Positions 10,201-57,300 of a stretch of 64,000 bases of DNA are shown here, one piece after another; within the stretch, counting starts at the first letter, position 1, and each line of letters starts with the position of its first letter. The stretch spans positions 37,412,609 to 37,476,608 of the forward strand of contig CM039464.1 of the NCBI GenBank assembly GCA_022414725.1, in the 5' to 3' direction. This stretch comes from Microglena sp. YARC. Its lineage: Eukaryota > Chlorophyta > Chlorophyceae > Chlamydomonadales > Chlamydomonadaceae. Position numbers and translations under genes: made by a program. The notes under the pieces are model-generated. The model saw only the letters and a program-made list of their open reading frames with translations, was not told where the DNA came from and ran no database searches.

Positions 10201-13200
10201 TTGTTGTTACGCCACTAACAAGCCTATCACCAACATAATATCTTTCCTTTCCTTCTCAACTGGAGAGACCAAGGTCGCCAACACTCCGTGCCATGGGATA
10301 CCACTTGCCACCACTCATCATACCATCATTCTCTGGCCACCCAGTATGTGTGCAACGATGGCTTTTTATTAGCTGTCCACCAAAGCGTGTGTCATGTAGA
10401 TTTGCCCTACCACTCAACAACGTGCTCACAAGCTAGGATTGCCTTTGGGTGCACCCCTAACTCTATACATATTCGCCTCCGCTACCAGAAGCTGTTTACA
10501 GATATTTATAGGCATGTCCATGAGGATACCAACTTAACCGTATGGAATGTGGAATTCTGCGATTCCACATTCAGAACCTTTATGAATGGAAATGGCACTA
10601 AGTATTTTTGGAGCAACCTAGCCGACTATCTTTCTACTTGTAGAAGAGCAAGACAGGAAGCCCTGGACTGCTTAGTGGCACCGTAATTTATCATCCCTTT
10701 GTTTCTTCTTCTTGTGACTTCTCATTTGTTAGCTTCTTACCTCCGCCACTGTAAGTGGTTGAGATCTGGGTCCGGCTCTAAGGGGTTTAATACCTACGCC
10801 ACCAAAACGGTGGTTGGGAGTTTGGTTTGTTTGTCCTCGACACACCCCTGATGTAATGGGGTTTTTTGCTTTGTGGGTGCTTTTTCTTTTTGTTTAAAGC
10901 ACAGAGTCTCATACACCCTCGCGGTGTCAAGTAGACTTTAACATGTAATGTAATGTAATGTAATACGCAAGGTGTTCCGTGGAGGCCTTCTGCTTGACTT
11001 CCTTGATGGTGTTGCATTAGATTGTGCTGTCCAAAATTGCCAAGAGATTCATTCGCCTTACCACACAGGGACTGGCCCAGGACGAACAACTACCAGGATG
11101 AAGATGCTTGCACCCCTTTAACCGCAATTTGACTGCATTGACCCCCCCCCCCCCCCCCCCCCCCCTCCCCTATAAGAATCAGTTGGGTGAGGCGCACATC
11201 AACGTTGTTGTGTGTGTTTTGTCACGCGCCGCATGTTCTCATTTACGCAAGTGTTTGAGCGTTGGATTGAGAAGTGCACGCGAAGGAATGTACTCATGTA
11301 GGCAGTAACTTGGATACAGGGCCGGCGGCTCACCCACTTATAGCATGTTCTCACAACTTGGTTAACATTTGGGAGCAAGTGTTTCACTGCCATCCCCAGC
11401 CACCCTATGTAACTCTGGCTGCCTAAGCACTACAAAAGCACGGTTGAAACTCCATGTGTGTGGTTGGTTGCCACACGTCACATTGATTTGAGGGATATCC
11501 TACATGCATGTTTGCATGTGCTATGCATGGGAGGCATTCATCATGTTGAGGAAACTGATATTTGCAGCATCACTGATGTTCCTATCAAACCCGTACCATC
11601 CAGTTGGTGCTCAGATTTTGACTGCTTTGGCCATTGCAAGTTTGGGCTTTGCAGCCCATGTCATAACCCGCCCCTACGTGAGCATCTACGTCCATAACAT
11701 GGAGGTTTTGTCCCAAGTGTCCATCTTAATATCCCTACTCATCAGGTATGATGTCACTAGTTGAAGCACAAACATGTATGCATGAACAATTATTAGCAAA
11801 TTTACGCTAGGTAAGGTCAAAATTAGGGTGGCCGGGGGGGTGGTAATAGTAAACAAAGTGTTCAATACCTATCCATAATTTACTCACTATACAACCTTAT
11901 TTCATGTACTCTACACACTATCCACTCTAACACACCCCACAACCAAGGTGTCAATACCATGTCAAGCTTGACATACTTAACAACCCTATTGCATAAAGTC
12001 ATTACTATGTCCATTATAACACTCCAAACAACTTTATTGCATGTATTTTAATACCTTGTGCACTCTCACACACCCAACAACCTTATTACAAGTAGTCAGT
12101 ACAATGTCCACTCTGACAAACCTAACAAACTCTTTGTAAATAGTAAGTACAATGCCAAGTCTGACACACCAACCAACCTTATTACATGTAGCCAGCACTA
12201 TGTCCAATGTAACACACCCAACAACCATACTGCAAGTAGTGAGTAACGTATCTACTTTGTCCAATGTAACACACCCAGCAATATATTTGCATGTAGACAG
12301 TAACATGTCCACCATGACACCCAACAATCTCTTTGCAAGTAGTCCGTACATTGTCCAATGTGACACAACCAATAGCCTCTTTGCATGTTGTAAGTACTAT
12401 GTCCACTCTGACACACCAACTACCTCATTGCAAGTAGTCAGTACCATGTCTACATTGACACACCCAACAACATCTTTGCATGCAGTGGATACCTTGTCAC
12501 TGCTGACTATGTGCCTTCTGGGTATGACATCCTAAAGGTTCTTCTGACCACCATCACTATAACCACAATTGCCATAATACTGATTGGCATGGTCAATTTG
12601 TGGTGTGATGGGATGCTCCTAATGGTGAGTGATGTAGCTTGAGGTTACTCTTTTCTAAGGCTCATGAAGATGTCGAGCACTTAGGAGGACTGAACTTGCC
12701 TCTTAGTTGTGGTGAATGTTTCACATGCTATGCCTAGAAAAGAGTATATGGGCATTCTCTAGCTGCATGTAGTATTCTTCTTGGGAAGGTGTGACACAAG
12801 TGATCTTCACGGGGCAACCTCCCCCTAGGTACACAAAATCCGTTTCTCCATGAAAAGCAAATAAGAAGTATTTAATAAGTGTTCATATGTACATAGTGTT
12901 GGTAGAAGGGGCACAATACCATAAGCAAAGTAGGAACCATTGTCAAGAGTGCGTGCACGGCTATGCTGTTGTTGCGTGTAGCAAACCAATCCTATCATCA
13001 TGCAATGACTAAACATGTATTACTTGGTTGGAGGAGTATTACAACACTAATCATATTGAGTGTATTTGAGACTAGAAATATCCAATCCAATATTGTTATT
13101 ATCACACGGCTGTGAATGGCTTATACTACGTAGGTTGGCCTTAATCCAGAGGAAGCTATGGACCTTCAATGGAAGCACATCCTCAAGATCATGCTTCCCG

Positions 13201-23552: not shown

Positions 23553-24776
23553 GATTATCTGAAGAGCATCCAGATACGTATCTGCTCATTTCAAATTATT
23601 ATCTTAGATATTTATCTCAGATATTGCACAGATACTATTTAGATGTTATCTAGCTACCACAGGTACAGGCGCATGTACGGTTTCAGGTATTGTTTAGACG
23701 CTATCTAAACAGTATCTAGTATTACAGATAATGCAGTTAGAGACATCCCTGATGAGAGAAGGGTTGGCTTTAAACGCCTCCGATACCAAAAATGGTTCGC
23801 AGCCAACAGCAATGATGAGAATGGCTTGATTCCCTTTACATCCGCCTTACATAAGCAGGATCAGATTCGTTCTATAGCACAGTTTAGAATGGGTTCCCAT
23901 TGGCTGAACACAGAAAGAATGAGGGTGGTGGATAGAGCACACATCCCTCGCTCAATGAGACACTGTCAAATGTGTGGGTTCCAAAAACCTGAGGATGAAA
24001 TGCATATGTTTGAGTGCCCTTTTTATAATGATATTCGCCTCCGCTACCAGAAGCTGTTTACAGATATTTATAGGCATGTCCATGAGGATACCAACTTACC
24101 GTATGGAATGTGGAATTCTGCGATTCCACATTCAGAACCTTTATGAATGGAAAATGGCACTAAGTATTTTTGGAGCAACCTAGCCGACTATCTTTCTACT
24201 TGTAGAAGAGCAAGACAGGAAGCCCTGGACTGCTTAGTGGCACCGTAATTTATCATCCCTTTTTTTCTTCTTCTTGTGACTTCTCATTTGTTAGCTTCTT
24301 ACCTCCGCCACTGTAAGTGGTTGAGATCTGGGTCCGGCTCTAAGGGGTTTAATACCTACGCCACCAAAACGGTGGTTGGGAGTTTGGTTTGTTTGTCCTC
24401 GACACACCCCTGATGTAATGGGGTTTTTTGCTTTGTGGGTGCTTTTTCTTTTTGTTTAAAGCACAGAGTCTCATACACCCTCGCGGTGTCAAGTAGACTT
24501 TAACATGTAATGTAATGTAATGTAATGTAAGATATCCGTATCTAGATATTGTTTAGATACTCTCTAAGCAGTATCTAGAAATACAGATATCCGTATCTAG
24601 ATATTGTCTAGATACTCTCTAGGCAGTATCTAGATACTACAGATATCAGTATCTATGCACCAGTATCTGTGATATCTAGATACCGTCTAGATAGTATCTG
24701 TTCAGTATCTGAGATAAATATGTGAGATAATAATTTGAATTAAGCAGGTACGTATCTAGATACTCCTCAGATAATC
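23553..24776. mobile_element. Fold-back (long inverted repeat) element interrupted by a LINE
   Basis: The left arm (23553-23730) starts gattatctga and continues with agatacgtatctgct, ttcaaattattatct and atttatctcagat. The right arm (24531-24776) ends with the reverse complement of the same words. The inner arms carry roughly 55-bp tandem units with gatatccgtatctagatatt. LINE copy B occupies 23731-24530 exactly between the arms. No transposase is present, so this is a non-autonomous fold-back or MITE-like element. I did not find convincing target duplications. Confidence 0.7.
23731..24530 (+). mobile_element. 5'-truncated LINE fragment, copy B, inside the fold-back element
   Basis: It begins at the equivalent of AVRDIPDERRVGFKRLRYQ and includes the C-x2-C-x9-H-x3-C finger (CQMCGFQKPEDEMHMFEC). 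It ends with the shared 3' UTR and TAATG-type tail. One base is missing around 24098 compared with copies A and C (aacttaccg against aacttaaccg), so the last part of the frame is broken. AGATA at both borders is a possible short target duplication. Confidence 0.8.
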
Positions 24777-36691: not shown

Positions 36692-37613
36692 AGCCCCTCT
36701 CAGTGATGTACAAAGGATCCAGTAAAAACATCAACATTTTGGAGGCTGTCGATGTCGAAGGTATTATGTCTGAAGTTTTTGAGTCATGGAGGTTTAAGTA
36801 CCCAAGTGACACCAATGCAGTTAGAGACATCCCTGATGAGAGAAGGGTTGGCTTTAAACGCCTCCGATACCAAAAATGGTTCGCAGCCAACAGCAATGAT
36901 GAGAATGGCTTGATTCCCTTTACATCCGCCTTACATAAGCAGGATCAGATTCGTTCTATAGCACAGTTTAGAATGGGTTCCCATTGGCTGAACACAGAAA
37001 GAATGAGGGTGGTGGATAGAGCACACATCCCTCGCTCAATGAGACACTGTCAAATGTGTGGGTTCCAAAAAACTGAGGATGAAATGCATATGTTTGAGTG
37101 CCCTTTTTATAATGATATTCGCCTCCGCTACCAGAATCTGTTTACAGATATTTATAGGCATGTCCATGAGGATACCGACTTAACCGTATGGAATGTGGAA
37201 TTCTGCGATTCCACATTCAGAACCTTTATGAATGGAAATGGCACTAAGTCTTTTTGGAGCAACCTAGCCGACTATCTTTCTACTTGTAGAAGAGCAAGAC
37301 AGGAAGCCCTGGACTGCTTAGTGGCACCGTAATTTATTATCCCTTTTTTTCTTCTTGAGACTTCTCATTTGTTAGCTTCTTACCTCCGCCACTGTAAGTG
37401 GTTGAGATCTGGGTCCTGCTCTAAGGGGTTTAATACCTACGCCACCAAAACGGTGGTTGGGAGTTTGGTTTGTTTGTCCTCGACACACCCCTGATGTAAT
37501 GGGGTTTTTTGCTTTGTGGGTGCTTTTTCTTTTTGTTTAAAGCACAGAGTCTCATACACCCTCGCGGTGTCAAGTAGACTTTAACATGTAATGTAATGTA
37601 ATGTAATGTAATG
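36692..37613 (+). mobile_element. LINE (non-LTR retrotransposon) 3' end, copy C, longest copy
   Basis: The frame 36706-37332 encodes the C-terminal part of a LINE polymerase protein, with RSIAQFRMGSHWLNTERMR and a C-x2-C-x9-H-x3-C zinc finger (CQMCGFQKTEDEMHMFEC), typical of the region after the reverse transcriptase in L1-like elements. The stop is at 37330-37332, followed by a 3' UTR and a (TGTAA)n tail. The reverse transcriptase itself is missing by 5' truncation. A SINE follows directly, and the 12-bp ATTACATTACAT occurs before the LINE (36680-36691) and after the SINE (37790-37801). Confidence 0.85.
36706..37332 (+). pseudogene. LINE ORF2 C-terminal fragment with CCHC finger
   Basis: It has 209 codons open from near the truncation point. 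It lacks the endonuclease and reverse transcriptase domains and so cannot mobilise itself. Copies A and B carry shorter parts of the same frame. Confidence 0.75.
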
Positions 37614-39794: not shown

Positions 39795-40460
39795 CTACAG
39801 ATACACCCGTCTCCTCTCTGCAATTTGCTGGCGGCAGATCGGGCAGACTTGGATGCGATCTGAGCAAGATCGACACATCGTATGGCCACAAGGATCTAAG
39901 CTAGTGTCCTTAGGAACAGATAGGCATACGCCACACTCAGCAGCTGCATCAAGTGCCTTATGAAGCTCTCTCTGCACACATTTGTCTAATATGGCCTTTC
40001 TAAGGCACCCCATGTCCACCTTGGCCAACAAGCGCTCCAACCTTTCAACGTCTTGCGAAGCTAGGACATCTCCCTGGCCTGTCATGCAACCCATGTGCAC
40101 CTCATATTCATCAAGCATTGACCTTGCTGTTGCTAGCTGCTCCGCATACTCATCGATCCTCATCCTTGCTGTTGCTAGCTTGGCCTCTTGCTCATCATTC
40201 CTCGATTTAGATATGGTAAGCTGAGCCTCTTGCTCATTGATCCTTGATCTTGCTGCTGCTAGCTGGGTACTCAATTTCTTTTTTTCAGTGTGCAGGTTTC
40301 CAATTGAGTTACGAGTAGGTCGTTGGTTCCCATCTTGTTGGGCAATAGACCTCCGGCTCATGTGTGATCCACCAATCAGAGTAGGGTATTCTGAACTTTT
40401 GATAAGCAACAAGTTGGAGATAAAATTCATGTTAGAGACCATTGATGGATGTGATGCCAT
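39795..40460 (-). CDS. RING-finger (C3HC4) protein with coiled coil, probable E3 ubiquitin ligase
   Basis: This 221-residue frame starts at ATG 40460-40458, the first ATG of the frame. Residues about 58-123 form a coiled coil of repeated heptads (LAAARSRINEQEAQL, LATARMRIDEYAEQL, LATARSMLDEYE). The C-terminus is a RING: C176-x2-C179, C191-x-H193, C196-x2-C199, C206-x2-C209 (ECGVCL, PCGHTMCRSC, CPICRQQI), followed by ERRRVYL and the stop. C-terminal RINGs of this form recruit E2 enzymes, usually as oligomers through the coiled coil; the substrate is unknown. A MITE sits directly upstream, so native promoter and leader are displaced. An upstream exon cannot be excluded. Confidence 0.8.
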   Translation of the reverse strand: MASHPSMVSNMNFISNLLLIKSSEYPTLIGGSHMSRRSIAQQDGNQRPTRNSIGNLHTEKKKLSTQLAAARSRINEQEAQLTISKSRNDEQEAKLATARMRIDEYAEQLATARSMLDEYEVHMGCMTGQGDVLASQDVERLERLLAKVDMGCLRKAILDKCVQRELHKALDAAAECGVCLSVPKDTSLDPCGHTMCRSCSDRIQVCPICRQQIAERRRVYL

Positions 40461-40465
40461 ATAGA

Positions 40466-40661
40466 TAGGGAACGGCAAATCATATGATGTTGACTAAAGA
40501 CTACCGGGTAGTATGATATCATATGATATCATACAAAAAGCATATGATATAATATATCATATGATATGATGCCCAGGCCAAAGTTACCTAGTCAGACAGC
40601 CGACATCATATGATATCATATGATGACATGATATCATATGATATCATATTGCCGATCCCTA
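40466..40661. mobile_element. hAT-type MITE, 196 bp, at the RING gene start codon
   Basis: The ends TAGGGAACGGCAAATCAT and, inverted, TAGGGATCGGCAATATGA resemble the hAT ends at 14192. CATATAGA (40458-40465) and CATATGGA (40662-40669) are an 8-bp target duplication with one mismatch. The interior is made of palindromic atcatatgatatcatat words and could fold into a hairpin. It has no coding capacity, so it was presumably moved by a related hAT transposase. Confidence 0.85.
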
Positions 40662-41025: not shown

Positions 41026-41886
41026 CATGATATTATTGAAAAATTATAGATCATGCTAATTGTTGAAGAATCCGTAAATGCAGATCATTGTTATTTGAAG
41101 TACGAATATAAATGATGATTATATTATACAAATGTGATAAACGCCCTGATAAATGTACACTGTAGTTTAATTATCTCTATAGCACGAAATCAGGGCCTCT
41201 GTTGGTAAAACAATTTGTAGGGCCCCAACTCATTCATTAGTGCTTGTTTTCGTATCAGTTCCTTCTGAATCGAGATTGGGCAGGTCCTTTCAGCCTAAAT
41301 GGCTACCCATGGACTGCAACATACACATACATGCGTGCATTATTTCTCCATGTGTCACTGCTAAAATGGACCGGCCAACCCAACCGTTTACATGGCATAT
41401 ACACCCTTGTGCTAACGGTATATGCTCGTGAGCACCCTTGTTTCCCCTAAACCGTTAGGTCCACTTGTACTTGTTCCAATTAACCAGCGAAACACACCGT
41501 TGTTGTGCTACCTGGACTCTTGATCCTATGGTTTAGTGCCAACAAGGGTGCGGCCGCCCATTTACTTGCTCTTGCAATCGCGCTTTATTTGTTGGAAGTC
41601 GCGCGGAACTGCGCATATTACTTATGTCTCCCATCGTTTCAAATAATAGCTCAGCGCCGAATGTTGAAAAATGACAGATGATTACTATCTTCCAATCTTG
41701 CTAGAGCAGCAGGAGTATGTGCTGTCTACGTTGAGAACCTCTTTAGCAAAGAGGGAGCAGGCTTCAGCGAAGCCTCCGACAAATGTCCGCGGAGAGGTAG
41801 TGGCCCGTTTGATTATCACGACACCTACAGCTAGCTAGCTAGCTAGCGGTAGCTACCGGTGGTCTATGACTGCTCGCTGCGCCTAG

Positions 41887-42523
41887 GTTAGTGGTGGCGC
41901 TGACCAAGACCCCGAGGAAGAGCAAGAAGGATCGGACCCCTGCGTCCGGTCATGAAAAGAAACCTCATCGCTACAGGTGCGACTTTGCCTTGTTAATTAC
42001 CAGCACATGCACCCTGCTAGCAATCTTGTTGCTGAGTTGGGATTGACGTCGCTCTGCGGCAGATCTGTGTCGACAACATTCCTGCCCTGTTGTTTGCTTT
42101 GCTCGGGTCCATAGATCTATAGATGCACCGACCGCCCGTGAAATGCATATTTCTTCAGATAGGCGAACGTTGTTAAAACGCAGGCCGGGCACAGTAGCAC
42201 TGCGGGAAAAAAACTGGGCTTTCTGTTGGTTGCTTTCTGTTGGTTTCTGTAGGTTGCTGTTTGGGCTGTGCTTTCTGCTGCTTTCTGCTGGTTTCTGCTG
42301 GTTGCTTGATGTCAGTTGCTTTCTGTTGGTTTCAGTAGGTTGCTGTTTGGGCTGGGCTGGGTTTCTGTTGGTTGCTAGCTGGTTGGGCTGTGCTTCATGT
42401 TGGTTTCTGTTGGTTGCCTTATGTCTGTTTGTTGCTTTCTTTTGCTTTCTGACATGTATACACAACCCATTTCCACCTTTTGTCTTGCAGCTTGCCAGGC
42501 GGATTCGAGGGGAGCGTGCTTGA
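41887..42523 (+). pseudogene. Broken histone H3 (variant) gene lacking the histone-fold core
   Basis: Exon a (41887-41976) encodes a basic tail ALTKTPRKSKKDRTPASG, then HEKKPHRYR, split at the Arg codon by a donor acag|gtgcga. Exon b begins at 42184 after acgcag with PGTVALRE. A final exon after cttgcag (42491-42523) gives LARRIRGERA and a stop. KKPHRYRPGTVALRE equals H3 residues 36-50 and LARRIRGERA equals 126-135. Residues 51-125, the helices that form the nucleosome core, are not encoded; a TTGGTTTCTGT-type minisatellite lies in their place. The tail before KKPHRYR differs from replication-type H3, suggesting a variant, possibly centromeric. It cannot make a working histone as it stands. 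Confidence 0.7.
42215..42455 (+). repeat. G/T-rich minisatellite inside the H3 remnant
   Basis: Units such as ctttctgttggttgctttc and ggtttctgtaggttgctg alternate. The frame that runs from the PGTVALRE segment to LARRIRGERA stays open through it, but the residues are just Leu/Phe/Cys/Trp translation of the repeat. Confidence 0.75.
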
Positions 42524-42570
42524 TCTATCAAAGTCATACGTGGTGAGTTTCTCCCCAGTGCATGTGTATA

Positions 42571-45015
42571 GGTGACTGGTCCTGTGTGTGCACGACTACT
42601 GTGCGAACCTGCTGCTCTTGCACACTCACACACACCCTGCGCACCGTAACATTGTTAGGTTGCTTGTGCACTGCCCGCGTGTCTGTGGCGCATGAAAGTT
42701 CCTGAAGGTGCTTGCCACAGCATGCATGCATGTGTATAGGTGACTGGTCCTGTATGTGCTCGATTACTGTGCGAACCTGCTGCTCTTGCACACTCACACG
42801 CACCCTGCGCACCGTAACATTGTTAGGTTGCTTGTGCACCACCCGCGTGTCTGTGGCGCATGAAAGTTCCTGAAGGTGCTTGCCACAGCATGCATGCATG
42901 TGTATAGGTGACTGGTCCTGTATGTGCACGACTATTGTGCAAACCTGCTGCTCTTGCACACTCACATACACCCTGCGCACCGTAACATTGTTAGGTTGCT
43001 TGTGCACTGCCCGTGTGTCTGTGGCGCATGAAAGTTCCTTAAGGTGCTTGCCACAGCATGCATGCATGTGTATAGGTGACTGGTCCTGTATGTGCACGAC
43101 TATTGTGCGAACCTGCTGCTCTTGCACACTCACATACACCCTGCGCACCGTAACATTGTTAGGTTGCTTGTGCACTGCCCGTGTGTCTGTGGCGCATGAA
43201 AGTTCCTTAAGGTGCTTGCCACAGCATGCATGCATGTGTATAGGTGACTGGTCCTGTATGTGCACAACTATTGTGCGAACCTGCTGCTCTTGCACACTCA
43301 CACACACCCTGCGCACTGTAACATTGTTAGGTTGCTTGTGCACCACCCGCGTGTCTGTGGCGCATGAAAGTTCCTTAAGGTGCTTGCCACAGCATGCATG
43401 CATGTGTATAGGTGACTGGTCCTGTATGTGCACGACTACTGTGCGAACCTGCTGCTCTTGCACACACACATACACCCGGCGCACCGTAACATTGTTAGGT
43501 TGCTTGTGCTCTGCCCGCATGTCTGTGGCGCATGAAAGTTCCTTAAGGTGCTTGCCACAGCATGCGTGCACGTGTATAGGTTAACATTGTGCACTACTAT
43601 AGGACCAACCAACCAACCAACCTTATCACTCCTACACACATACACATACACACTTAAAACTGCGACGTTGCTTGTGCCCACTTACCTGAATGTAACACCT
43701 TACCTTATGCAGGGCATCCTCTGGAGGCTGCAACCCCCCGTCCTTTCAGATGCACTACTTGATGATGGGCTGTCTGATGTATGGACTGATGTGTGGACTG
43801 ATGGCTGCATGATGTATGGACTGATGGCGAGGCTGATGTAGCCATGATGTGAGAGCGTTCGTAGTAGTGGTGAGTTTGCGTTTCTGGCGTAGTTGCTTCT
43901 TGCGTGTGTGGGTTGCATGTAGCACTGCAGTGTTGTGCTAATATGATGCGGGGAACCGGGTTTACGTGTATTTGTCTGTCAATGTACAAGAACTAGGAGA
44001 ATGGAATAGTGTGTTTGCAGGAGTTGAAATAACTCATCGCATGTGCACCTTCACATGTTGCTTGTGCACTGCCCGTGTGTCTGTGGCGCATGAAAGTTCC
44101 TGAAGGTGCTTGCCACAGCATGCATGCATGTGTATAGTTGACTGGTCCTGTATGTGCGCGACTACTATGCGAACCTGCTGCTCTTGCACACTCACATACA
44201 CCCTGCGCACCGTAACATTGTTAGGTTGCTTGTGCACTGCCCGCGTGTCTGTGGCGCATGAAAGTTCCTTAAGGTGCTTGCCACAGCATGCATGCATGTG
44301 TATAGGTGACTGGTCCTGTATGTGCACGACTACTGTGCGAACCTGCTGCTCTTGCACACACACATACACCCGGCGCACCGTAACATTGTTAGGTTGCTTG
44401 TGCTCTGCCCGCATGTCTGTGGCGCATGAAAGTTCCTTAAGGTGCTTGCCACAGCATGCGTGCACGTGTATAGGTTAACATTGTGCACTACTATAGGACC
44501 AACCAACCAACCAACCTTATCACTCCTACACACATACACATACACACTTAAAACTGCGACGTTGCTTGTGCCCACTTACCTGAATGTAACACCTTACCTT
44601 ATGCAGGGCATCCTCTGGAGGCTGCAACCCCCCGTCCTTTCAGATGCACTACTTGATGATGGGCTGTCTGATGTATGGACTGATGTGTGGACTGATGGCT
44701 GCATGATGTATGGACTGATGGCGAGGCTGATGTAGCCATGATGTGAGAGCGTTCGTAGTAGTGGTGAGTTTGCGTTTCTGACGTAGTTGCTTCTTGCGTG
44801 TGTGGGTTGCATGTAGCACTGCAGTGTTGTGCTAATATGATGCGGGGAACCGGGTCTACGTGTATTTGTCTGTCAATGTACAAGAACTAGGAGAATGGAA
44901 TAGTGTGTTTGCAGGAGTTGAAATAACTCATCGCATGTGCACCTTCACATGTTGCTGGTGGACTGCCCGCATTTATGTGGCGCATGCAAGTGCCTTAAGG
45001 TGCTTGCCGCAACAT
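42571..45015. repeat. 168-bp satellite with 894-bp higher-order repeat
   Basis: Starts of ggtgactggtcctg fall at 42571, 42739, 42907, 43075, 43243 and 43411, an exact 168-bp period. From about 43430 a composite block of satellite plus about 500 bp of other sequence is repeated 894 bp later (43436-44029 against 44330-44923), and a third partial copy follows to about 45170. As 168 is a multiple of three, frames are open on both strands (345 residues at 42534-43571 minus, 234 at 42880-43584 plus). Each composite has an acceptor-like accttaccttatgcag at 43696-43711, 44590-44605 and 45145-45160. Confidence 0.85.
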
Positions 45016-45219
45016 GCATGCATGTGTGTAGGTTAACATTGTGCACTATGGTAGGACCAACCAGTCAACCTTATCACTCCTACACAAATAGACATACACA
45101 CTTAAAAGTGCGACGTTGCTTGTGCCCACTTACCTGAATGTAACACCTTACCTTATGCAGGACATCCTTAAGAGACTGTCTCTCCGCCAAGACCAAGTTG
45201 TAGTGTGTGTGGGGGGGAA

Positions 45220-45237
45220 GGGGGGGGGGGGGGGGGG
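45220..45237 (+). repeat. G18 run after a GT tract
   Basis: It follows gtgtgtgtgggggggaa. This is another example of the compound (GT)n-(G)n pattern. From 45238 to 46116 no gene or element was recognised. Confidence 0.8.
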
Positions 45238-46191
45238 ATATCATCCCCGTGGGGAAGGTGTTGGGCCTATTCCATATGTCTTCTATCTGCACAATACAAT
45301 GGGCTGGAAGGAGACAGTGGCATGGGTGTCGGGTTTGGTGTAGAGCTTGAGGACAGCTACTTAGGAGACACCTAAACGGGTGAGGTGAGGTTCGTTGGGA
45401 AGAACATTGATAGAAATGGTCCCTGCCCTGTGGTACCCAATTTAACAACTAAGTATATCACTTTATATCCCTGATCTTTCAGAGGTTGTGGTAGGATAGG
45501 GTCTTAGTTGTGTTGAATCCCCTTTTCCGCATATTTAACCGAGTGGTTAGTGTCAGAGCAGTAGCCGATGTCATGTTCGTGGATGGGGGGACATGTGGTG
45601 GGATTGGAGAATGATTGTTGATTCGGGGCCAAGAGGAGGTCTGATCAAAGATTGTCCCTAGTGTTTGTTGTAACGAATTCAAGGTTGGAGATGTCTGAAA
45701 CATATGTATTCATACGAGTGACAAGTGTAACGGATACGATGCTGGAGACTTCTATGTTTATTTTCACTCATCATCTCGCTTGTATATAACAATCAAGATC
45801 AGGGGTGGACTACGGTAGTCAGCGGATTATGTTGTCAGCTCCTAGACGCACTGTGTTGCATTAGCTCTGGCTAAATAACCAGCCATAGAAGCTGTTGCTT
45901 TTAGCTGGAAAAAGAGCATACCGAAATTCAAGAATCAGGTGACTCAATATACGGTAGTTTGCAAATCGTCGTTGTTGTTGTTACATCTTGTTGCACATTC
46001 ACCAAGTACCCTGCTCGAGCTTGCTGTAATAAAACCACGTGAACATTCAAATCATTCGCTTATTAAGTGGACTGGCTGACCATCCAACATGTAACACTTC
46101 AATTCAAATCAAGAGTGATTGTGAAGCTTTCCGGGGTGATACAACTGAAGCGGCACAGGGAATGGACAGGAGGATTACGATAAAAGGTTCG

Positions 46192-46517
46192 TATCAGCAT
46201 GTATAGCGGTGCTCTCACGCGTTTTATGACTTGGTGACTACTTATGTACTCCCTTAGAACTATCGGCTCTCCTGAGCCAGCTTCCCGTGGGACTGAGTCA
46301 TCTTGAGATGACTCAGTGGCAGCTTCCTGTCACCTACGTCTCCGGTCTGATCTGTACCCTGTTAGGTTCCTGTCTACCGCCTCCTTTCACCACAGGTGCC
46401 CCTTTATGGGTCTCCTGTGTCTGTAACGTTATCCTTGTCTCCGTGTATAGATTGGTGCGTCTGTTCCGCTGCTTTTAATCTACTGTCCACTCTACCGGAG
46501 TGATTTCAAGTTTGATA
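46192..46517 (+). repeat. 5' LTR of the copia element
   Basis: It begins TATCAGCATGTATAG. The 3' LTR ends GCTGATA, an inverted repeat of the start; here the end reads TTTGATA. Length is 326 bp. Confidence 0.9.
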
Positions 46518-46601
46518 GTTATTGGGCTCCTCATCACTACCACTGCTTTGATAATGCAACTTCCGCGAGGGCCTCCTGCCGGCTTTGTGAAACTTACAAA
46601 C

Positions 46602-48704
46602 TTAATGGTGTTTCATGGGCTCGTGGGATCCGCAGTGTCATTGTGAGCAATGGATGCGACCGAATCCTCCCAACGGGGGTGAAGGTTCCTCTAGATTGGC
46701 TAGACGACTGCGCGCCAGCGGCCTCTGCTGCCGGAGAGGAGGGTCCTTCCGCCATCAAGGAAGTAACCCCCCCCGATCAATCCTCCAACTTTACGGTTCC
46801 TTCTCTCAATGTTCGACGCCTTTCCTCTGATGTTGAGGATGTCCTGATGAAGCTGTGTTGTGTACAGACACAGATCATCCGTTGTGCATCAGACCCGCAG
46901 CCTCCTTTCGTCCCTTTCAATTATGATGAAGACTACTCTACTACTACTGATGATGAGGAGGACTTGAAGAGTGCTACGAGTGCTGACTTCGGTGGCGTGA
47001 CCCCATCTGCTGCTGCCACTCGTGTCTTTGAGACTTCCGCTGTTTCGCCGGTGTATGAGCCTCCTGATCAGCAGATGCCTAATCGAGAGCTTTCGCCTGT
47101 GTATCAGCCTCAGCCTTCGTCGGCGCCTCCCTTTGAGCCTGTTCCCCGGCTTACCCGGAGGTGGCTAAGCCCACTTTCTTGAAGGGCTTGGCTTCTTTTT
47201 CCTCTGCATCTGCCCCCATGGAAGCGTGGCCTCCCTGGCTACCACACTCGCTCTCGCGAGGCTGCTGTTTCCTCTGCACGCACCTCTGCTGCTGGTGCCT
47301 CCCTGGAACCCCCTCCGCCTCCGCCGGTGGAGCTGCCTCCTGCCCCTGGCCCTCCTCCTATGCTGCATACGCGGTCTTGCGCATCTTGGGAGCATCTGCT
47401 CACTGGCGATCTCCTCCGACTTTGAACCTTCGGGACTACCGCGCTGATCAACATGGATCGACGGGATGGTGAGTCCTTGAACCGCTTCTTTGTACGGTCG
47501 GATGGATATGCAGGCTACAATGGCAAATGTTAGTGTGAAGCTGAGGCATCGCCGAGTGATGGCTTTCTCTGAGCTTGGGTACCAGGTGTCGTTCTTTTCT
47601 TGGTCCAGTCACTTCTGGGATTCTGTATCCCCCAGATCATGGTGTTTCCTTTGGTGGGTACGAGGCGTAGTGATCACGAGAAGCTTGGTTATCAGTTTGT
47701 GCGAGTGCCTGTCCCTCTGTGTCCTGTTAGCCCAGATTTCGAGCTGCTTATGAGTGTTGCGAGGTCCATTCCTGTGATTAGGAACATAGACGACCAGCGC
47801 GCTCTTGACGCTGGTCTTGCTGCGGAGTATTTCATGGACATTCGTAGGTCTTTGGCTCCTGTCCCTTCTGCGATTGGAGCTGGGTCTAATACCCTCATCA
47901 TGGTGAGTCTCGGTTTGATCCTGCACTGTTGGGGTTCAGTGCACTGCCTCTCGAACGTCAGGAGTTCATGTGTTTAACTGTGATGCTCGCGAACATGGAG
48001 GACGATATGGTCAAGGTATACCAGGACTTTGCCACCCCTCGGGATATCCTTTTGGATATCCGGAGAATCAGTCTGATGCCCTTGCCTCTAGAGTCCCTCT
48101 CATGCGTATCGAACTTCATAATGCGCACATGGGCCCTTCTGACCGTGTCGATGATTTCTTTCGCATGGTTCGCAGTCTGTGCACTGACCTCCGCAGTGCT
48201 GGACATCCTGTCACTCAGCGCCACGCCATGGAAACCATTGTGAATGGGATCCGTTTGATCCGATTTGAATCGCTGCGGATCCAGTACGGTATGATGTTGG
48301 CTAACAGACAGACTGTAGATTACTGGTCTTGTCTGGAGGCATATCGGTCTCTCGACATTTTGAACATTGCTCTCCCAGGTCCGACTCCAGGCATCCTGGT
48401 TGGTCCCGGGACGCTCCCCAGGTTCCTGCCAATGCTGCGTTTCAGCGTGGGCAGGGATCTGGTTCTCAGGGTTCTGGTTCCAACAAGCGACGTCTGGATT
48501 GCACTTGGGGCCCATGCCTCAGCAAGACGACCCACTCGGAGGATCGCTGTTTCACGAAGCATCCGCACCTGCGTAAGACCAAGCCTGGTGCACCGGTTAC
48601 CAATCCGGTGCCCATGGCCTTGGCCCCTTCCAGGTGTGCTTACTCCGCGGCAGCTGGCCTCCTTGCAGGCTCAGATTGATGGGTATGCTTTGGACAAGAA
48701 ATAG
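46602..48704 (+). pseudogene. Copia gag region (frame-shifted)
   Basis: Frames at 46643-47182, 47600-47977 and 47970-48704 together span a Gag-like protein. The last contains RIELHNAHMGPSDRVDDFFR and LRSAGHPVTQRHAMETIVNG, the helical pattern of copia Gag (UBN2-like). A Cys/His-rich stretch CTWGPCLSKTTHSEDRC around 48495-48560 resembles a zinc knuckle. At least two frame changes separate these parts. Confidence 0.65.
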
Positions 48705-48727
48705 GAGGTACGCTCTGTCCTTTTCTC

Positions 48728-49045
48728 TTGCACTGCGAATTTTCAAATGTCTGCAGCCCGAGCCTGTCTGAGGGTGTCTGGCATGTTGATTCTGGAGCTG
48801 GGATGTCAATCACAGGTGATATGTCTTTGTTCACTGTGTTTCATGCTTCTGAGACTGGGCCAGCAGTTAAATTTGGTGATGGTGTGGTTCAACGGTCTGT
48901 GGGTCAGGGTTCTATTGTGTTAGGTAGTGATTGGTTACCAACACCAATCACTTTAACCAATGTTCTCTACATCCCACACTGTCCGGTGAACCTCATGTCA
49001 GTAAATGCTGTTGCCCATTGCTCACAACTGCAAGATTTCTTTTGA
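48728..49045 (+). pseudogene. Copia protease
   Basis: WHVDSGAGMSITGD carries the catalytic Asp (codon at 48788) of retropepsin-type copia proteases, followed by VLYIPHCPVNLMSV, another conserved copia segment. The frame ends at 49045 and the polyprotein continues in another frame. Confidence 0.8.
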
Positions 49046-49059
49046 TAGTCTTAGTTGTA

Positions 49060-50420
49060 CTGCCACACAGGGCTCTTTCTGTTCTGTGGTCTTTCCCTGC
49101 CTCCAGTGATGGTGTGTACAAGTTTGCATGTAGCCTTGTCAACCCTCGTGGCCGTTTGTATGGTGCTGAAGATTATCCAGCTTTTGCTCTTGATGTTGAT
49201 GAGGATGGTGGAGTTGTGATCCCTACCACTCCTGAATGGTTGTGGCATAGGCGGCTGGGTCACCCTGGCTATGATGCCATGCACAACCTTGTAAGGAAGG
49301 GTTTGGTTCAGAACTTACCCCTCACTCTCCAACAGGTGCAAAGACTGTCTAAGATCATGTGATGCTTGTCAGAAGGCAAAGGGAAACGTATCCCTTTTCC
49401 TAAAGAAGCAAAACTAGGATCCGTGCCCCATTACAACGCCTTCACTTGGACATCATGGGGCCATTTAATATTAGGGGCTTGCGTGGGGAGTTTTATGTTC
49501 TGTGTCTCACTGACCAAATACTCTGGCTATGCTGAGGTCTTGTGCTTGAGAACAGGGATGGAAGCTCCCTTAGCAGTTCAAACAACCATCCTCAGATGGA
49601 TGACTCAGCTGCATGGATTTGTTTTTCAAGTGTCTCTAGGTCTGACAGGGCTAAGGAATTTATAGTGAAGTGGTTCGAGGATTGGTTAGAATCGGTTTGG
49701 TGCTGTGCATGAATTGTCCATGGCTTACACTGCTCAGCAGAATGCGACTGTGGAACGGTACAATGGGGTCTTCAGAACGTAGCTAGGAGCATTCACTTGG
49801 AGTCTAAGCTCACTAAGTCCTTCAGCCCTATGCCTTCCTCGCCGCGTGTTACCTACGCAACCGGCTGCCTAATCAGGGTGACAAGACTCCTTATGAGTTG
49901 TTCTTTGGGTTTCTACCTGATGTATCGTTATTGCGCGTGTTCGGGTGCCCATGCTATGTTACCTTAGTGAAATGGGAAGAAGCGCATAAGCTTGACGAAA
50001 GGGCGTTATCTGGTAGACTGGTTGGGTATTCTCTGGTGAGTAAGGGTTATTTTGTTTGGGTTCCGAAGTTGCGCCAGGTGGTAGAGAGTCGTGATGTGCT
50101 CTTCTATGAACGTTTAGCTATACTGTATCCCTGGGCTCTTTCCTATAATGGATCTCAGTATTTTTCTCGCACCCCTGCCGCTATCATCGGTAAAGGGTTG
50201 GATACTACTGACAATGTCCTGGGCCCTTTACCAACCCCGATTGTTGACCGCTTTACTGGTCATGGGATGACGATGCGTCCCAGGCCAGGTAATGATGGTG
50301 CTGTATCGCGTGCGGCGGCATTGGGCCAGGGGGAGTTGATGTTCCTTCAAGCTCTAATTTATTCGAATCTCAGGGGGTCGCCGGGCCTTCCTCTGCGCCA
50401 CGTTTCGTCGGTGAAGTCGT
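49060..50420 (+). pseudogene. Copia integrase region
   Basis: LWHRRLGHPGYDAMHNLV (about 49235-49290) is the gag-pre-integrase His pair, and a third frame gives CKDC and CDACQKAKG for the Cys pair. YTAQQNATVERYNG near 49727 resembles the core around the catalytic Glu, and TPYELFFGFLPDVSLLRVFG with CPCYV (49888 on) is the usual post-core segment. There are several stops and frame changes, including a TAG after the NGVFRT segment near 49781. Confidence 0.7.
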
Positions 50421-50859
50421 AGGATTAGGACAGCCTCGGGTCATAGTGGAACCTAGTACAGGTCCACTGCCCACTAGTCGCCACCCCCCCGTCCACCTAT
50501 TCGGATACCTCGCGGGAGTTGTTGATCACTTCACCCCCTGCTATACCTGGTGGTTTATACCGGACCAGGCATTGCGACGATGTGGCCGTCACAGATGATG
50601 TGAGTGATGACCTCGAACACTGGTCCGGGTCAGATACTGCGTATGGCTGGGGTGTTCCAGTGTACCCAGGCTTCGACGATTTAGAGGCAAAGGAGGCCGG
50701 CCTTGTTCAACCACGCATGAGTGCTGCGCTGGGGTTTATTACCGGTTACTGCTGATACTGCTGATATCCCGCTGCCCATGTACAAGTACACTGCTTGTAC
50801 GTGGGGGCTTTTATTTCTACCTCTACTGAATCTCTTATAAAGCTGCAATGTTACCTACC

Positions 50860-51600
50860 AACCCTAACAGAGAATCTCTGGCTGCAGGCTATGAAGGATG
50901 AGATGGCCTCCCTCCATGCTCATGGCACTTGGGTCCTCACTCCACAGCCTCCTAGGCAGAGGATTCTATCTGGCAGATGGTTATTTGTCAGAACATGGGG
51001 CTGATGGTTCTTTGCGTTTTAAAGCTCGTTTTGTAGTTCGTGGTTTTCTGCAACGTCCTGGGCTGGACTACATGATGTATATGCCCCGTCTCCTCTAAAG
51101 CAGGTCTTCGTGTGCTCTTGCTGCCATCACTCATAGGAAGATGTTTGTGAGGCAGCTGGACATCAAGACTGCATTCTTGAATGCAAGCTGGAACCTGGTC
51201 TGGACCTGTTCTGTTACCAGCCTGAGGGCTTTCATGAACTTGGTCCTGACAATGTTCCCCTTGTGTGCAAGCTGATTAAATCTCTTTATGGTTTGAAGCA
51301 GGCACCCAGGGCTTGGAGCAAAGATGTAAAGCAGGTTTTGGTTGCCCACGGTTTTACCATGTGCAAAGCTGAACCTGCTCTGTATTTCAGGAGGGATTCT
51401 ACTGGTGGGTGGAGCTATGTCCTGACTATGTGGATGACTTCATCTGTGCTTTTAGTGAGCTGCATAGGTATGCCTTGCTGATCGAGGCTATGGAAGCAGC
51501 TGGGTGGGAAGTCAAGGAAATGGGTGTACCTGTCCAGTTCCTTTCATTGGACATGACTTGTACACTTGATTCTGACGCAGGTGTGTTAAGATCAACCTCT
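50860..51600 (+). pseudogene. Copia reverse transcriptase
   Basis: Conserved pieces occur in changing frames: MKDEMASLHAHGTWVL, FKARFVVRGFLQRPGLDY, RQLDIKTAFLNA, LIKSLYGLKQAPRAWSK (from 51275) and the catalytic YVDD at 51427-51438. The match to copia reverse transcriptases is unmistakable, but it is not one open frame. Confidence 0.85.
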
Positions 51601-51745
51601 CCCAGCACTCCTACATTGTTGAGCTGGTGGAGCAGTTTGGTCTCACTGCTGCTACCAAACCCAAGTTTTCAGTTCCCATGGCAAGTGCACTGTCACTGAT
51701 CCTCCTGGAGAACCTCTGGCCTCTAATAGCCAGTACCTCTCTCTT

Positions 51746-52310
51746 GTGGGGGCTTTGCTGTACCTGGCTACCTGCACAAGGCCTGATATTTCTTTTGCTG
51801 TGAGCTACCTGTCCAGGTTTTTCTGCTCAACCCACTGCCCCTGTGGGCTGCAGCCAAGCGCTTTGCTTTTGTATTTGAGAGAACATTCCCATCTGGGCCT
51901 CACTTACACTCACAGCCCTGGTTTCTCTTTTACTGTCTTTAGTGACTCATCCTTTGCTGATGATGGGTCTGACAGGAGATCTCAGACTGGCTATGCTGTG
52001 CTTGCTGGAGGGAGGGAGGTGCAATGGTTGAAAAAGTTGAGAATTGATCTAGGGCTGCCTTGTGACCTGGTCACCATTCAGGGTGACAACTTGGGGTCCT
52101 TGAGCTGGGCCAATGACTGTCAGCTGCTCCTCTCGCAACAAGCACATTGATGTCATCCATCACTATATCCAGGAGCTGGTGGAAGATGGCCAGGTGGATG
52201 TTGCCTATGTTAACACTAAGGACAACTGTGCTGACCCCTTCAACCAAGCCCTTGATCCTATGGTGTTCTGGCGTTTCATTCGCATGTTTGGAATGACTGC
52301 TTCTCCTTAA
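51746..52310 (+). pseudogene. Copia RNase H and C-terminal tail
   Basis: It contains GALLYLATCTRPDISFAVSY, FSDSSFADD and SQTGYAVLAGGREVQW of the copia RNase H, then HIDVIHHYIQELVEDGQVDV and NCADPFNQALD before the stop at 52310. One frame change lies around 52113-52150. Confidence 0.8.
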
Positions 52311-52698
52311 ACCAATTTTTTGGTTACATGTATTCTAGAATTTTGGTTACATGTATTCTGGAATTTTTGGTTACATTTTAGGGTTTCTTTGGTTACATTT
52401 AGGAGTTTCTTTAAGTTATCATTGATTGGCATTAGGTTCCTATTCCCGGATCGGGTTTTCTATACCGTTGTTACCCGACTTTGATATTTAGTTGTCCTCT
52501 TATATCCACTTGGCAATTTTGGTTCTTTGCCTTGCTTCATACCTTCCCTTACACCCTTCGGGTTTCATTTGAAGTTTCTCTCGATTTTTTTTTCCGGAGT
52601 TCTTTGATTTTTTTTTTTAATTTGTTACATATAGTTCTATGTCACCAGTGCCATAGGTGGAGTAGTACTATTGTATGTCACCTGTGTCATAGGTGGAG

Positions 52699-53022
52699 TA
52701 TCAGCATGTATAGCGGTGCTCTCACGCGTTTTATGACTTGGTGACTACTTATGTACTCCCTTAGAACTATCGGCTCTCCTGAGCCAGCTTCCCGTGGGAC
52801 TGAGTCATCTTGAGATGACTCAGTGGCAGCTTCCTGTCACCTACGTCTCCGGTCTGATCTGTACCCTGTTAGGTTCCTGTCTACCGCCTCCTTTCACCAC
52901 AGGTGCCCCTTTATGGGTCTCCTGTGTCTGTAACGTTATCCTTGTCTCCGTGTATAGATTGGTGCGTCTGTTCCGCTGCTTTAATCTACTGTCCACTCTA
53001 CCGGAGTGATTTCAAGCTGATA
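52699..53022 (+). repeat. 3' LTR of the copia element
   Basis: It is 324 bp, starts TATCAGCATG and ends CAAGCTGATA, followed by the GTTCG duplication. Confidence 0.9.
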
Positions 53023-53302
53023 GTTCGACACGGGATAGCTAACGGGCAGTAGAGCCCAGCATATAAGATGACGGCAGTACATCATTGTACTGCCGCCGCT
53101 GGGTGCAAGCCCTATTGGGCATGAGCACTACAGCAGGTGCAGCCAGGCGGGAAGCCTGGCGCTCTAGGACTCTCTAGCAGGACCGGGAGAACCGGTCAAT
53201 AACAGATTGTGCATAAGCGGATTGTAGCACAGGTGGATAGGTCAGACGGGGGCTGGGCAGAGCAATTGAATTCAAAACAGGAGCGACAAGTGGTGGACTG
53301 AC

Positions 53303-53910
53303 TGGCTGGAACCATGTAACCATATCATATTTAAGTTATGATATGTTGATATGTTTCATTATTGCTTCCAGAGCTATTAATTTGCTACTAGCAGCGGCTT
53401 CGGAGCAGCTCCACGAACTGGCTATTTTGACAGAGTTAAGACTGCGAACAGCCAAATTGCTGGCTGGAACCATGCAACCATCTCAAATTGAAGTTATGAT
53501 ATGTTGATATGTTTCATTGCTTCCAGGGCTAGTAATTTGCTACTACCATCCAGCGGCTTCGGGGCAGCTCCACGAAGTAGCTATTTGGACAGTGTTAGGA
53601 CTGCGAACCGCCAAATTGCTGGCTGGAACCATGTAACCACATCAAGTTGAAGTTATGATATGTTGATATGTTTCATAGCTTCCAGAGCTATTCATTTGCT
53701 ACTAGCAGCGCCTTCGGGGCAGCTCCACGAAATAGCTATTTGAACAGAGTTAAGACTGCGAACAGCCAAATTGCTGGCTGGAATTGAAATTGAAATTGAA
53801 ATTGTTACATCCGTGTAATACCGTTACTCACAGGACGTGAAGTTAAGGACACCATAGCGTAAGGCGGAGCTAGCCATAGTCACCGTATGCTGGCTGGAAC
53901 CATGTAACCA
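53303..53910 (+). repeat. About 158-bp tandem repeat, three copies plus partials
   Basis: tggctggaaccatg(t/c)aacca starts at 53303, 53461 and 53620. The third unit ends at 53775, where a short (attgaa)n stretch begins, and a partial unit occurs at 53891. The units carry gatatgttgatatgtttcat and cagctccacgaa. No coding signal was seen. Confidence 0.8.
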
Positions 53911-54077
53911 CATCAAGTTCAAATCATTGCCGAGACAGAAAACAGATACAGGGTTAGTCAGACAGCAGGGAGAAAGGATATTGCTACCCACTCAGCACAA
54001 ATAAATTCCAAAACCGAACAGCGCCGGGGGCAGCTCGACCATATGATAACAGTGAGAGTTTGGGCAGCAAACGCCTT

Positions 54078-54177
<100 letters not shown>

Positions 54178-54329
54178 TCGTTACACATAAAGAGAGACAG
54201 GGATCGTTATGTAAACTCAGCAACCCATTTACTAGACAGGTCAGCACAGAAGAGAGATGGAGGGTTCGTTACATAAACTCAGGAAATCAACTCATCAATA
54301 CATCAACACATCCTGCCCCCTGCCCCCTG

Positions 54330-57300
54330 CCCCCCCCCCCCCCCCCCTACCATACACATTCACATCCATACATCCTTTGTGTACGGTGGATCGCTGACTC
54401 GTCTAGTTATAGTAGGGGCACGGAGTGCGGCCTCTTTCTGTTCGAAGGTGCGGAGAAGCAGGGTTCTAAACGAGCTCTGCCTATGGCGAATTCACGAGCG
54501 GAAGCCTCGCGCTGCTGAGCTGGCACACGGAGCATATAACCGCAAGCCAGTAGTGCTCGGTAGTGCTGTTGTCGTTTGCGGTGGTTGTTGGATGGGTCAA
54601 ACCAGCGGCCGCGGTTGCTTTTCATCCTATGCGAGACAACCCCTGCTCTGCTCCTGTTCAAAATAGTTATCTTTCAACTACGCTACTTTCTTCACCCTGC
54701 TCTTTGCTCGTGCTCTTCAGTAGCTGCTCGCAGAGATTCTTCTAACTGCATGGCTGGTATTCTCGATCTTCTTTCCTGTCGCTTGCATCATGGCTCTGTA
54801 AGTCGCTAGTATTCACAATCGCATTGCTTATACCCCAGTTAATGTCGAACGCAATGTTCGTGCACGCATTTGTATGGTACAGCCAGAGTTACCCTCGAAC
54901 GTGCTTGCTCCTCCGACTCTGAGTTTGTTAGATGCGTCCTTACTGCTTGCATGCTAGTTCTGTCAGCCGTTAACGTTCCTATTAGCCTATCTAGTGCTAG
55001 GAAGGTCTTCAGACGCATCATCAGCTCAAGCATCGAGTCAATTATAATCTGAGCCAGCACGACTGGTAGCGACAGGACGTTAGCCGCAGGCTTCATCCTT
55101 TTGCGCAAGATGGCTCTGAGGCATTGCAGCATCCCGCTTGGCCATTATAATACTATTACCATCCTAACCCAAAATATTCGTACACGCATCTGGCATTTCA
55201 GGGACTGCGACTGGTACCTGCCAGTGCTTCTAATAGCGGTACCGGGCCTCTTACTGCCCTGTGTCCCTCTCACGAGGTTATACCTGAATGCAGCTCGAAT
55301 TTGGGATCCCACTGTCACTTACCGCCCTTCCATCCCCATCGCAGTATCATGGCAAGTCCATCACCTGCGAAGACTGGCTTGCCCTTCCCGCCCGCCGGCC
55401 CACCCGCCAATCCTTCGGTTCCACTATCGGCTGTTGCGGAGGGCTCGGTAGCGGAGGGTAAATCCAGATTTGACGGGTGCCATGACTTAACTTGCTGGCG
55501 CAGATCATGCCTTGGCCTCAAGTGGTGACTCGAACATGCATTACATAACATGCCTTAACTTAGACCATGCGATTGCCCCCCAACTGTTCTCATGGATGCC
55601 TGCCCCTTGCACTGCTCCCTACCTTTAATTGCTCTCTTACGCATGCGCTACCCTACTCTATTCACCTCCCTGCCGCCCCTCGCCCTGCCCCCTGCCCTTC
55701 AAAGATCTCTAACACATGCCCTACCCTGCTCTTTTCACGGCCTTACCCCTGCCCTGCCTGATGTGCTCTGGCCTCCAACCTCCAATTTCTAACCTTTGAC
55801 ATCCAACCTCAAACCTCCGTATACCTATGAAGGCTCTGGCCTCCAACCTCCAACTTCCTTCAACCTCCAACATAATTTAATCTCCAACCTCCTTCAACCT
55901 CCAACCTCCTCAAACCTGTTCAGGCTCTGGCTTCTGGCTTGCAAGGAACTGGCGCCACTTTGTATTTGTTATTCGTTCCTCCTAGTACCATCGGACCATT
56001 AGTATCATCTGCAAATTAAACTAGCAACCAAGCTGCATCAACCCTTAACTACATACTAGTGACACCCATCCAGCTTTACCCTCTAACCCTCCCTCAACCC
56101 ACTCACCCACCTACCCTCTCATCCATCCAACTACCCTCTTACCCACCACCCACCAACCCTCTCACCCACCCACCTCACCCACCCAGGTACCCTCTCACCC
56201 ACACACTTACCCCCTCACCTACCCGCATGCACGCACCCTTATAGGTTGCATTCTTGAAGCTCGAAAGGACGGAGGCAATGGAAGCAGAGTCATGAGCTCA
56301 AGAAGACCAACAAGGAGGAGCCCTCTGCAGTTCAGGCACTCAGTTGAGCTAGATTGAAGACGAGGAGGGCGCCCTCCTTGCTAGCAAGACATAATTTATG
56401 CATAGATGTGATTATATTATAGCAACATGTCTGTGCCCACATGTTCATCGATATTGATCACCATTAAAGGTGATCAAATCTTGTTTTGGCCTCCTTGTTT
56501 CATTTTTGAAGTTCTTTTAATTGGCTGGCACCCTAACGGGTTTGTATCCACCAGTGTAAATTCCCAATCTTTCCCACAACGATTATAATTCATTACGTCT
56601 GTTTCATCGAGGCAACAGTCGGTGACAATCTCAATTAGGGGCGACCTGACAGTTTGGACAACTGTTGAATGTAGGGCAGGAAACAGTCGGTGTCAATCTA
56701 AATTAGGGGCGACCTAACAGTTTGGACAACTGTTGAATGAAGGGCGGGAAACAGTCGGTGACAAATACAAATAGGGGTTACAAAACAGTAAGTGCGACTG
56801 TTGAATGGAGGCAATCAATGGTGTACATATACGGTACACCCACCGTTGTTGTAGACTGTATCACCAACGGTTGTCCAACAACGGTCCATTTAACAGTCTA
56901 TAGGTGGACCCTTGCTATGCTACAACAACCGGTTAATGTACACTTTTTAACCCTATACTAGACTCTACAGTCAACGGTTTACAGCCTAAGGGTCTACATG
57001 TTTTCCAGGCCAAATCAACGGTCTGTTTTCTCTGCCCATTTTACCAGTGTGTGTGTACCGTGTCAAATATTCCTACAGCATACCGAGTTAGCAGCAGGGT
57101 TGTTCAAAGCCCTCTGAGAGTTTATGTGGCGCAAGTAGAGCCCCGCCCCACGCACGTCCAACTTATAATGTGAGTGAAAACATGTGACAATCAAGGACAA
57201 CACACACTTCCCAGTCAAAAACTAAAAACATATGTTACAAAAGTACGTGTCAACACGCATTCACCCCTCTGAAGTGTATGTGGATGTTCACACGCAGCCA

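Follow-up and report, generated by a model that had tools for sequence, protein, structure and literature searches.

Histone H3 pieces in a Microglena contig look like a gene captured by a CACTA-like transposon

The histone H3 coding pieces detected in a 64,000-nucleotide stretch of Microglena sp. YARC DNA (contig CM039464.1, hereafter the window) are very probably the H3 cargo of a transposon copy that arose by capture, two deletions, spread in trans and a later LTR retrotransposon insertion (probability about 0.93). The window gene does not appear to be a new kind of histone gene and looks like transposon gene capture. In the preliminary description it was regarded as a single H3 gene, a view that was not retained since the pieces belong to one copy of a dispersed transposon present at about ten loci. 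The features of the window are the following.

41356..57049, + strand: CACTA-like DNA transposon, 15,694 bp (8,858 bp without the nested LTR element)
41356..41805, + strand: the 450 bp at the left end of the element, also present in the sister elements L045-L047
41805..46191, + strand: segment with patchy homology to locus L042, covering its promoter side, the gene and the 3' part
41879..41976, + strand: exon 1 remnant, in frame APRLVVALTKTPRKSKKDRTPASGHEKKPHRY(R), from the alignment with L042 and L043
41977..42183, + strand: intron 1 (gtgcga..acgcag), about 90% identical to L042
42184..42208, + strand: opening 25 bp of exon 2, (R)PGTVALRE; the other 225 bp of this exon (75 codons) have been lost by deletion
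42209..42490, + strand: A-run junction, then the 3' part of intron 2 (G/T-rich minisatellite), shared with intron 2 of L042 and of L043
42491..42523, + strand: exon 3, LARRIRGERA and stop codon (42521-42523)
42559..44475, + strand: two blocks of a 168-bp tandem array, downstream of the coding part
46192..53022, no strand assigned: nested LTR retrotransposon with 99.1% identity between its LTRs and the target site duplication (TSD) GTTCG
53028..57049, + strand: right part of the element, 159-bp repeats and right terminal inverted repeat (TIR)
TSDs of the elements: window TGT, L035 TGT, L038 GTC, L039 GTA, L040 ACG, L041 ACA, 42-kb element ATA

Elsewhere in the window, the RING finger (PF13920, E = 1.5e-11) encoded by ORF 39798-40478 (- strand) follows a long stretch that may be a coiled coil. 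Three 0.5-kb repeats (10469-10964, 24031-24526 and 37115-37607) were 98-99% identical, and the similarity between 23730-24530 and 36814-37611 spanned 0.8 kb.

The three H3 pieces (41879-41976, 42184-42208 and 42491-42523) were found on the + strand in one frame. The H3 identity proposed earlier for KKPHRYR (41957-41977, the last base being intronic), PGTVALRE (42185-42208) and LARRIRGERA (42491-42520) was supported by exact matches of 7, 8 and 10 residues, whereas the best matches in 100 simulated windows (first-order Markov model, dinucleotide statistics preserved) reached 6/7, 6/8 and 7/10 residues. The tblastn comparison of H3 with the window resulted in E-values of 2e-4, 0.45 and 0.024 for pieces 1-3, respectively. 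The other rows among the 40 best tblastn matches were at chance level, so that these matches gave no sign of a further H3 core in the window. Neither of the two H3 fragments submitted to Pfam gave a family, and Rfam gave no match at gathering scores. The splice borders CTACAG/GTGCGA (41976/41977), ACGCAG/GCCGGG (42183/42184) and TTGCAG/CTTGCC (42490/42491), previously called plausible, all recur in the related intact gene of L042.

When KKPHRYRPGTVALRE and LARRIRGERA (25 residues and stop) were compared with the canonical H3 gene of locus L001, 18 of the 26 codons differed with no amino-acid change, referring to a long period of protein-level constraint on the H3 pieces before their decay. The exact H3 reading of exons 2 and 3 could likewise be a sign of constraint. 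The intronless canonical H3 genes were rejected as a recent source due to these silent differences and the lack of a useful DNA match. In the genome search for H3-type genes the best 150 of 902 candidates were scored, many of them at the same top score. The eight H3 genes read from this search were intronless, and some of the listed copies contained in-frame stops, e.g. five around C1:90.85-90.90 Mb. The canonical locus L001 had a paired H3-H4 arrangement with TGTAA near the gene ends, which would fit a chlorophycean green alga as host.

An intact H3 elsewhere in the genome, for which the preliminary description suggested a search, is the related and complete three-exon gene at L042 (C3:16509500-16519499; exons 4786-4919, 5120-5369 and 5658-5690). 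It encodes a 138-aa divergent H3, the core of which is identical to the canonical H3 of the genome at 74 of 94 residues, in agreement with the earlier proposal of a non-canonical source. The best 60 of the 172 sequences found with the L042 protein in PDB were all named as histone H3 types. The window matched L042 in patches from 4618 to 7972, and the homology picked up again at 53028 to about 53302 of the window. In a second relative, L043 (C822; 91-93% identity over the longer aligned pieces), exon 1 is disrupted by a 62-bp insertion, apparently an inverted duplication. The exon missing from the window is supplied by these two relatives, the intact and the broken one. Further ORFs were present in the L043 neighbourhood, one with an AAA domain (PF13245, E = 5e-6), possibly from another mobile element.

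Among the best 40 of 149 candidates, the core exon of the variant was matched well at 2 loci only; the other 38 rows were 74-76% identical and mostly H3 loci. The region upstream of the L042 gene matched both loci and short stretches in nine element copies (11 of 11 candidates). The protein search with the tail resulted in 4306 matches, the four inspected being canonical-type H3 or near it, and the search with the variant core in 6948 matches, five of which were inspected: P0142 was rejected as a relative, being a doubled canonical core, and the other four were canonical-like. The introns of the captured copy were about 90% identical to those of L042, and exon 1 was 75.8% identical. Judging by these values, L042 would be a relative of the captured copy and need not be its direct source. 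As even the introns reached only about 90%, the capture, or the separation of the two lineages, appears to be older than the spread of the element.

The TIRs of the element, CACTGCTAAAATGG and CCATTTTACCAGTG, match in inverted orientation at 13 of 14 bases and are flanked by the 3-bp TSD TGT. The left edge at 41356 is common to other copies, and the right edge at 57049 is shared with L041, L049, L050 and others. The TIRs of CACTA (EnSpm) elements start with CACTA (CMCWR in the wider consensus), and subterminal repeats occur in opposite orientation at the two ends. Both ends of the window element start with CACTG, which fits CMCWR and differs from CACTA in the fifth base; in the portions of the CACTA literature checked for this word, a CACTG terminus was not mentioned. 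The motif AACCGTT was present in few copies, 2 forward in the left 500 bp and 2 reverse in the right 800 bp, with none in a 1-kb middle stretch of the element. A 3-bp TSD, given as a CACTA (EnSpm) feature in the consulted part of PMC4158355, was found in the window element and altogether in 7 of the 8 elements read at both ends; L045, also read at both ends, had none. A Helitron was rejected, since the base before CACTG varies and both a TIR and a TSD exist. The end searches (best 40 of 220 left-end and best 40 of 65 right-end candidates) could be paired by eye into at least 19 spans of 0.6 to 42 kb, 8 of which were checked by reading. Parts of PMC11005252 and PMC8978399 were also drawn on.

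An element ORF starting at 41672-41805 (DDYYLPILLEQQEYVLSTLRTSL...) continues in L045-L048 and is interrupted where the H3 segment begins; it had no Pfam match. No H3 match was found in the sister elements L045-L047. Element ORFs of at least 120 aa were listed for 44500-46191 and 53028-57049, and the one submitted to Pfam, 55053-55448, had no match. The copy in the window shows no apparent transposase of its own. The Transposase_21 domain (PF02992), which represents the DDE transposase type of autonomous CACTA elements, was matched 12 times in the genome, in none of the cases inside family spans paired from the matches listed, so that no transposase could be linked to the family. Ten of these 12 matches were on high-numbered contigs (C2141-C2311) and may represent contamination or unplaced repeats. 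No Pfam model matched the family ORFs submitted, including that of L047. The L047 ORF near the left end, which we take to resemble a CACTA transposase, had one relative in the genome, and the protein search with the L048 element ORF gave none at E 0.001 among 7998 candidates.

The LTR retrotransposon nested in the window element is young and, as inferred with PF25597 in its ORF 49898-50419, probably Copia-like. Six copies (L032, L034, L035, L038, L041 and L044) continue beyond 46191, the point where the window sequence is interrupted, and the shared sequence resumes at 53028; the insertion was missing at this site in all six copies read across.

Whether the source gene is the centromeric H3 (CENH3) of this organism was considered and is doubtful. 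CENH3 is distinguished from the canonical H3 by a longer loop 1 and by the loss of the conserved Q of PFQRL. L042 reads PFMRL, i.e. Q is replaced by M, and its core is divergent with the 74/94 identity given above. In comparison of L042 with the window, exon 1 differed more than intron 1 (23/95 vs 20/199 sites, p = 0.002), and the codon changes of exon 1 were 12 non-synonymous vs 2 synonymous. In contrast, loop 1 is not longer, the core length being 94 as in canonical H3, the C-terminus of L042 is close to canonical, and the change in the tail could result from relaxed constraint after capture. The exon pieces and the source gene are H3, as are CENH3 and canonical H3; unlike these, the window copy is without start and core, and the source gene is without a loop-1 extension.

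The 168-bp array, described earlier as lying beside the H3 pieces in a setting that would suit a centromere, is indeed present there; the second half of that description gained no support. The unit was also detected 3' of the gene at L042, at C822 and in sister elements. Its search resulted in 199 matches at 37 of 37 candidates, common words being skipped by the search, and positions were taken from about 150 of the 199 matches. Among the matches listed, full-length ones of at least 89% were restricted to the H3-bearing copies, L042, C822 and C1332, and the weaker ones elsewhere (about 74-89%, mostly 110 bp) were repeats of about 157-159 bp, four groups of which adjoin left ends of the element family. 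The listed patches, distributed over several contigs, measured up to about 10 kb; many of them lay inside elements or beside family ends, and no long centromeric-type arrays were found among them. As it is part of the captured gene, occurs also in sister elements and forms short dispersed patches, the array does not support a centromere and rather argues against centromeric identity. The block at 43541-44049, between the two array parts, has a duplicate after them at 44435-44943, and its sequence recurs in L053, a sister with a spacer like 43541-45178 and no H3 piece in the 1 kb read.

The surroundings of L042 bear on the origin of the gene. Two family ends in the same orientation, C3:16542374 and C3:16500156, lie 42 kb apart with ATA on both sides, and the L042 gene sits between them. 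The only whole copy of the H3 variant found, in a span read in part, seems to lie inside a large mobile element. The variant could then be native cargo of the transposon family, with the window copy as its decayed derivative and no capture of a host gene; we consider this unlikely. The position of the sole intact copy between ATA-flanked family ends would fit such an origin, as would the broken state of the other copy (C822) and the related repeats of about 157-159 bp next to family ends at which the H3 search gave no H3 part. However, the gene and the 42-kb element run on opposite strands, whereas gene and element share their orientation in the small elements; the 10 kb around L042 or L043 did not show any family end; and a stretch of about 1 kb next to the gene (L042:8000-8988) had no match but itself among the best 40 of 610 candidates.

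Capture by the element is further described by the copies of the segment. The genome searched comprised 568 Mb in 2,390 contigs, and 17 neighbourhoods of 10 kb were compared with the window. With 41640-42215 as the query, 28 DNA matches were obtained at 25 of 25 candidates. They comprised the window together with eight near-full copies (96-97%), a number of shorter copies and, with 83-84%, two relatives. Elements of this kind were found to carry H3 pieces at ten loci, the tenth of which, L044, retains exons 2 and 3 only. Across the left 860 bp nine copies were 94.9-99.4% alike; the distance from the majority consensus (gaps ignored) was 0.3-1.3% in eight copies and 3.8% in L039. Exon 3 was altered in L034 and L044.

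Two segments of L042 are missing from the window. The first, at about 4679-4824, is a 146-bp stretch holding the start codon and the first 13 codons, directly upstream of the exon 1 remnant; it is missing with the same junction spacing (103-109 bp) in all nine loci retaining exon 1 (L044 is without it). An ATG-to-GTG mutation of the start codon was rejected, as the alignment places the real start inside these 146 bp. The second, at about 5146-5470, takes in 225 bp of exon 2 plus some 100 bp from intron 2, and accounts for the 75 residues missing between pieces 2 and 3, as had been stated. A functional H3 has a start codon and a complete histone fold; here the start codon and 75 core codons are deleted. 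The core deletion was detected in 9 of 9 loci retaining exon 2 (10 loci examined; L039 is without exon 2). Since both deletions are shared by all copies retaining the exon concerned, they are older than the spread, and the decay preceded it. The G/T-rich stretch after the second gap, which was earlier supposed to have replaced the core, is real and occurs in intron 2 of L042 and L043 (90.5% identity to L042 over 168 bp). Insertion of a minisatellite was therefore rejected; by this comparison the stretch is native to the gene as the 3' part of its intron 2, and nothing has replaced the core.

The missing exon might be real and lost between repeats in the assembly, and the junction at the minisatellite, seen in the window alone, is compatible with such a collapse. 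This is highly improbable, because the same junction was found at nine separately placed loci on C1, C2, C3 and C108, all those with piece 2, and the distance to exon 3 (215-369 bp) and the lengths of the A-run differ among the loci. Translation of the frame from RPGTVALRE through the minisatellite to LARRIRGERA into a functional truncated H3-like protein can practically be dismissed: the frame, reported earlier as open, is uninterrupted to the stop in the window and open also in L032, but stops close it in the other 7 of the 9 copies and the shared deletion took the start codon of the gene, so that the open frame of the window looks like a coincidence.

According to the preferred explanation, capture followed by spread, an element of this family would have acquired a divergent three-exon H3 gene by transduplication, and the promoter side, the introns and the 168-bp repeats of the 3' part would have been captured with it. 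Deletion of the start codon and the first 13 codons, and a second deletion joining exon 2 to intron 2 with the loss of 75 codons, would have left a pseudogene. The element would then have been mobilised in trans, resulting in about ten loci, and the LTR element would later have inserted into the window copy. The present copies would make no histone and, as DNA, would be passengers.

Pack-CACTA and Pack-TYPE elements, as described in the consulted parts of PMC8903248 and PMC13317346, are TIR elements without transposase which hold and multiply gene DNA, and the window element appears similar to them. Their foreign gene sequence would correspond here to H3 parts with introns at matching positions, for which the status of host gene and that of native cargo were both considered. 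Captured parts in Pack-TYPE elements are usually pseudogenes (review PMC13317346, in the part consulted, where the mentions of CENH3 come from a reference title). Unlike Pack-CACTA, the TIR here starts with CACTG, the cargo is a divergent H3 gene with the borders of both introns, the host lies outside the land plants, and a copy of the cargo gene is also found within the 42-kb end-to-end span. Published CACTA elements, in the sections seen, also contain gene fragments and satellite arrays; there these are separate additions, whereas here the 168-bp array is also present 3' of the related intact gene. Soybean Tgm-Express (PMC1947982, in part) is likewise a CACTA element mobilising gene fragments; the splicing of its captured exons was studied, and that of the window copy is predicted from DNA. 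The titles and abstract openings inspected contained no case of captured histone genes, which is not proof of absence.

With this reading, the odd histone without a core finds its explanation in the capture of a gene by a transposon. Attention is also drawn to an intact, divergent variant of H3, the sole whole copy found appearing to lie inside a large mobile element. That a large CACTA-like transposon carries the divergent H3 variant, the small derivatives holding its wreckage, is rather improbable; if true, an H3 variant brought along by the transposon could change chromatin, either that of the element or that of the sites it targets.
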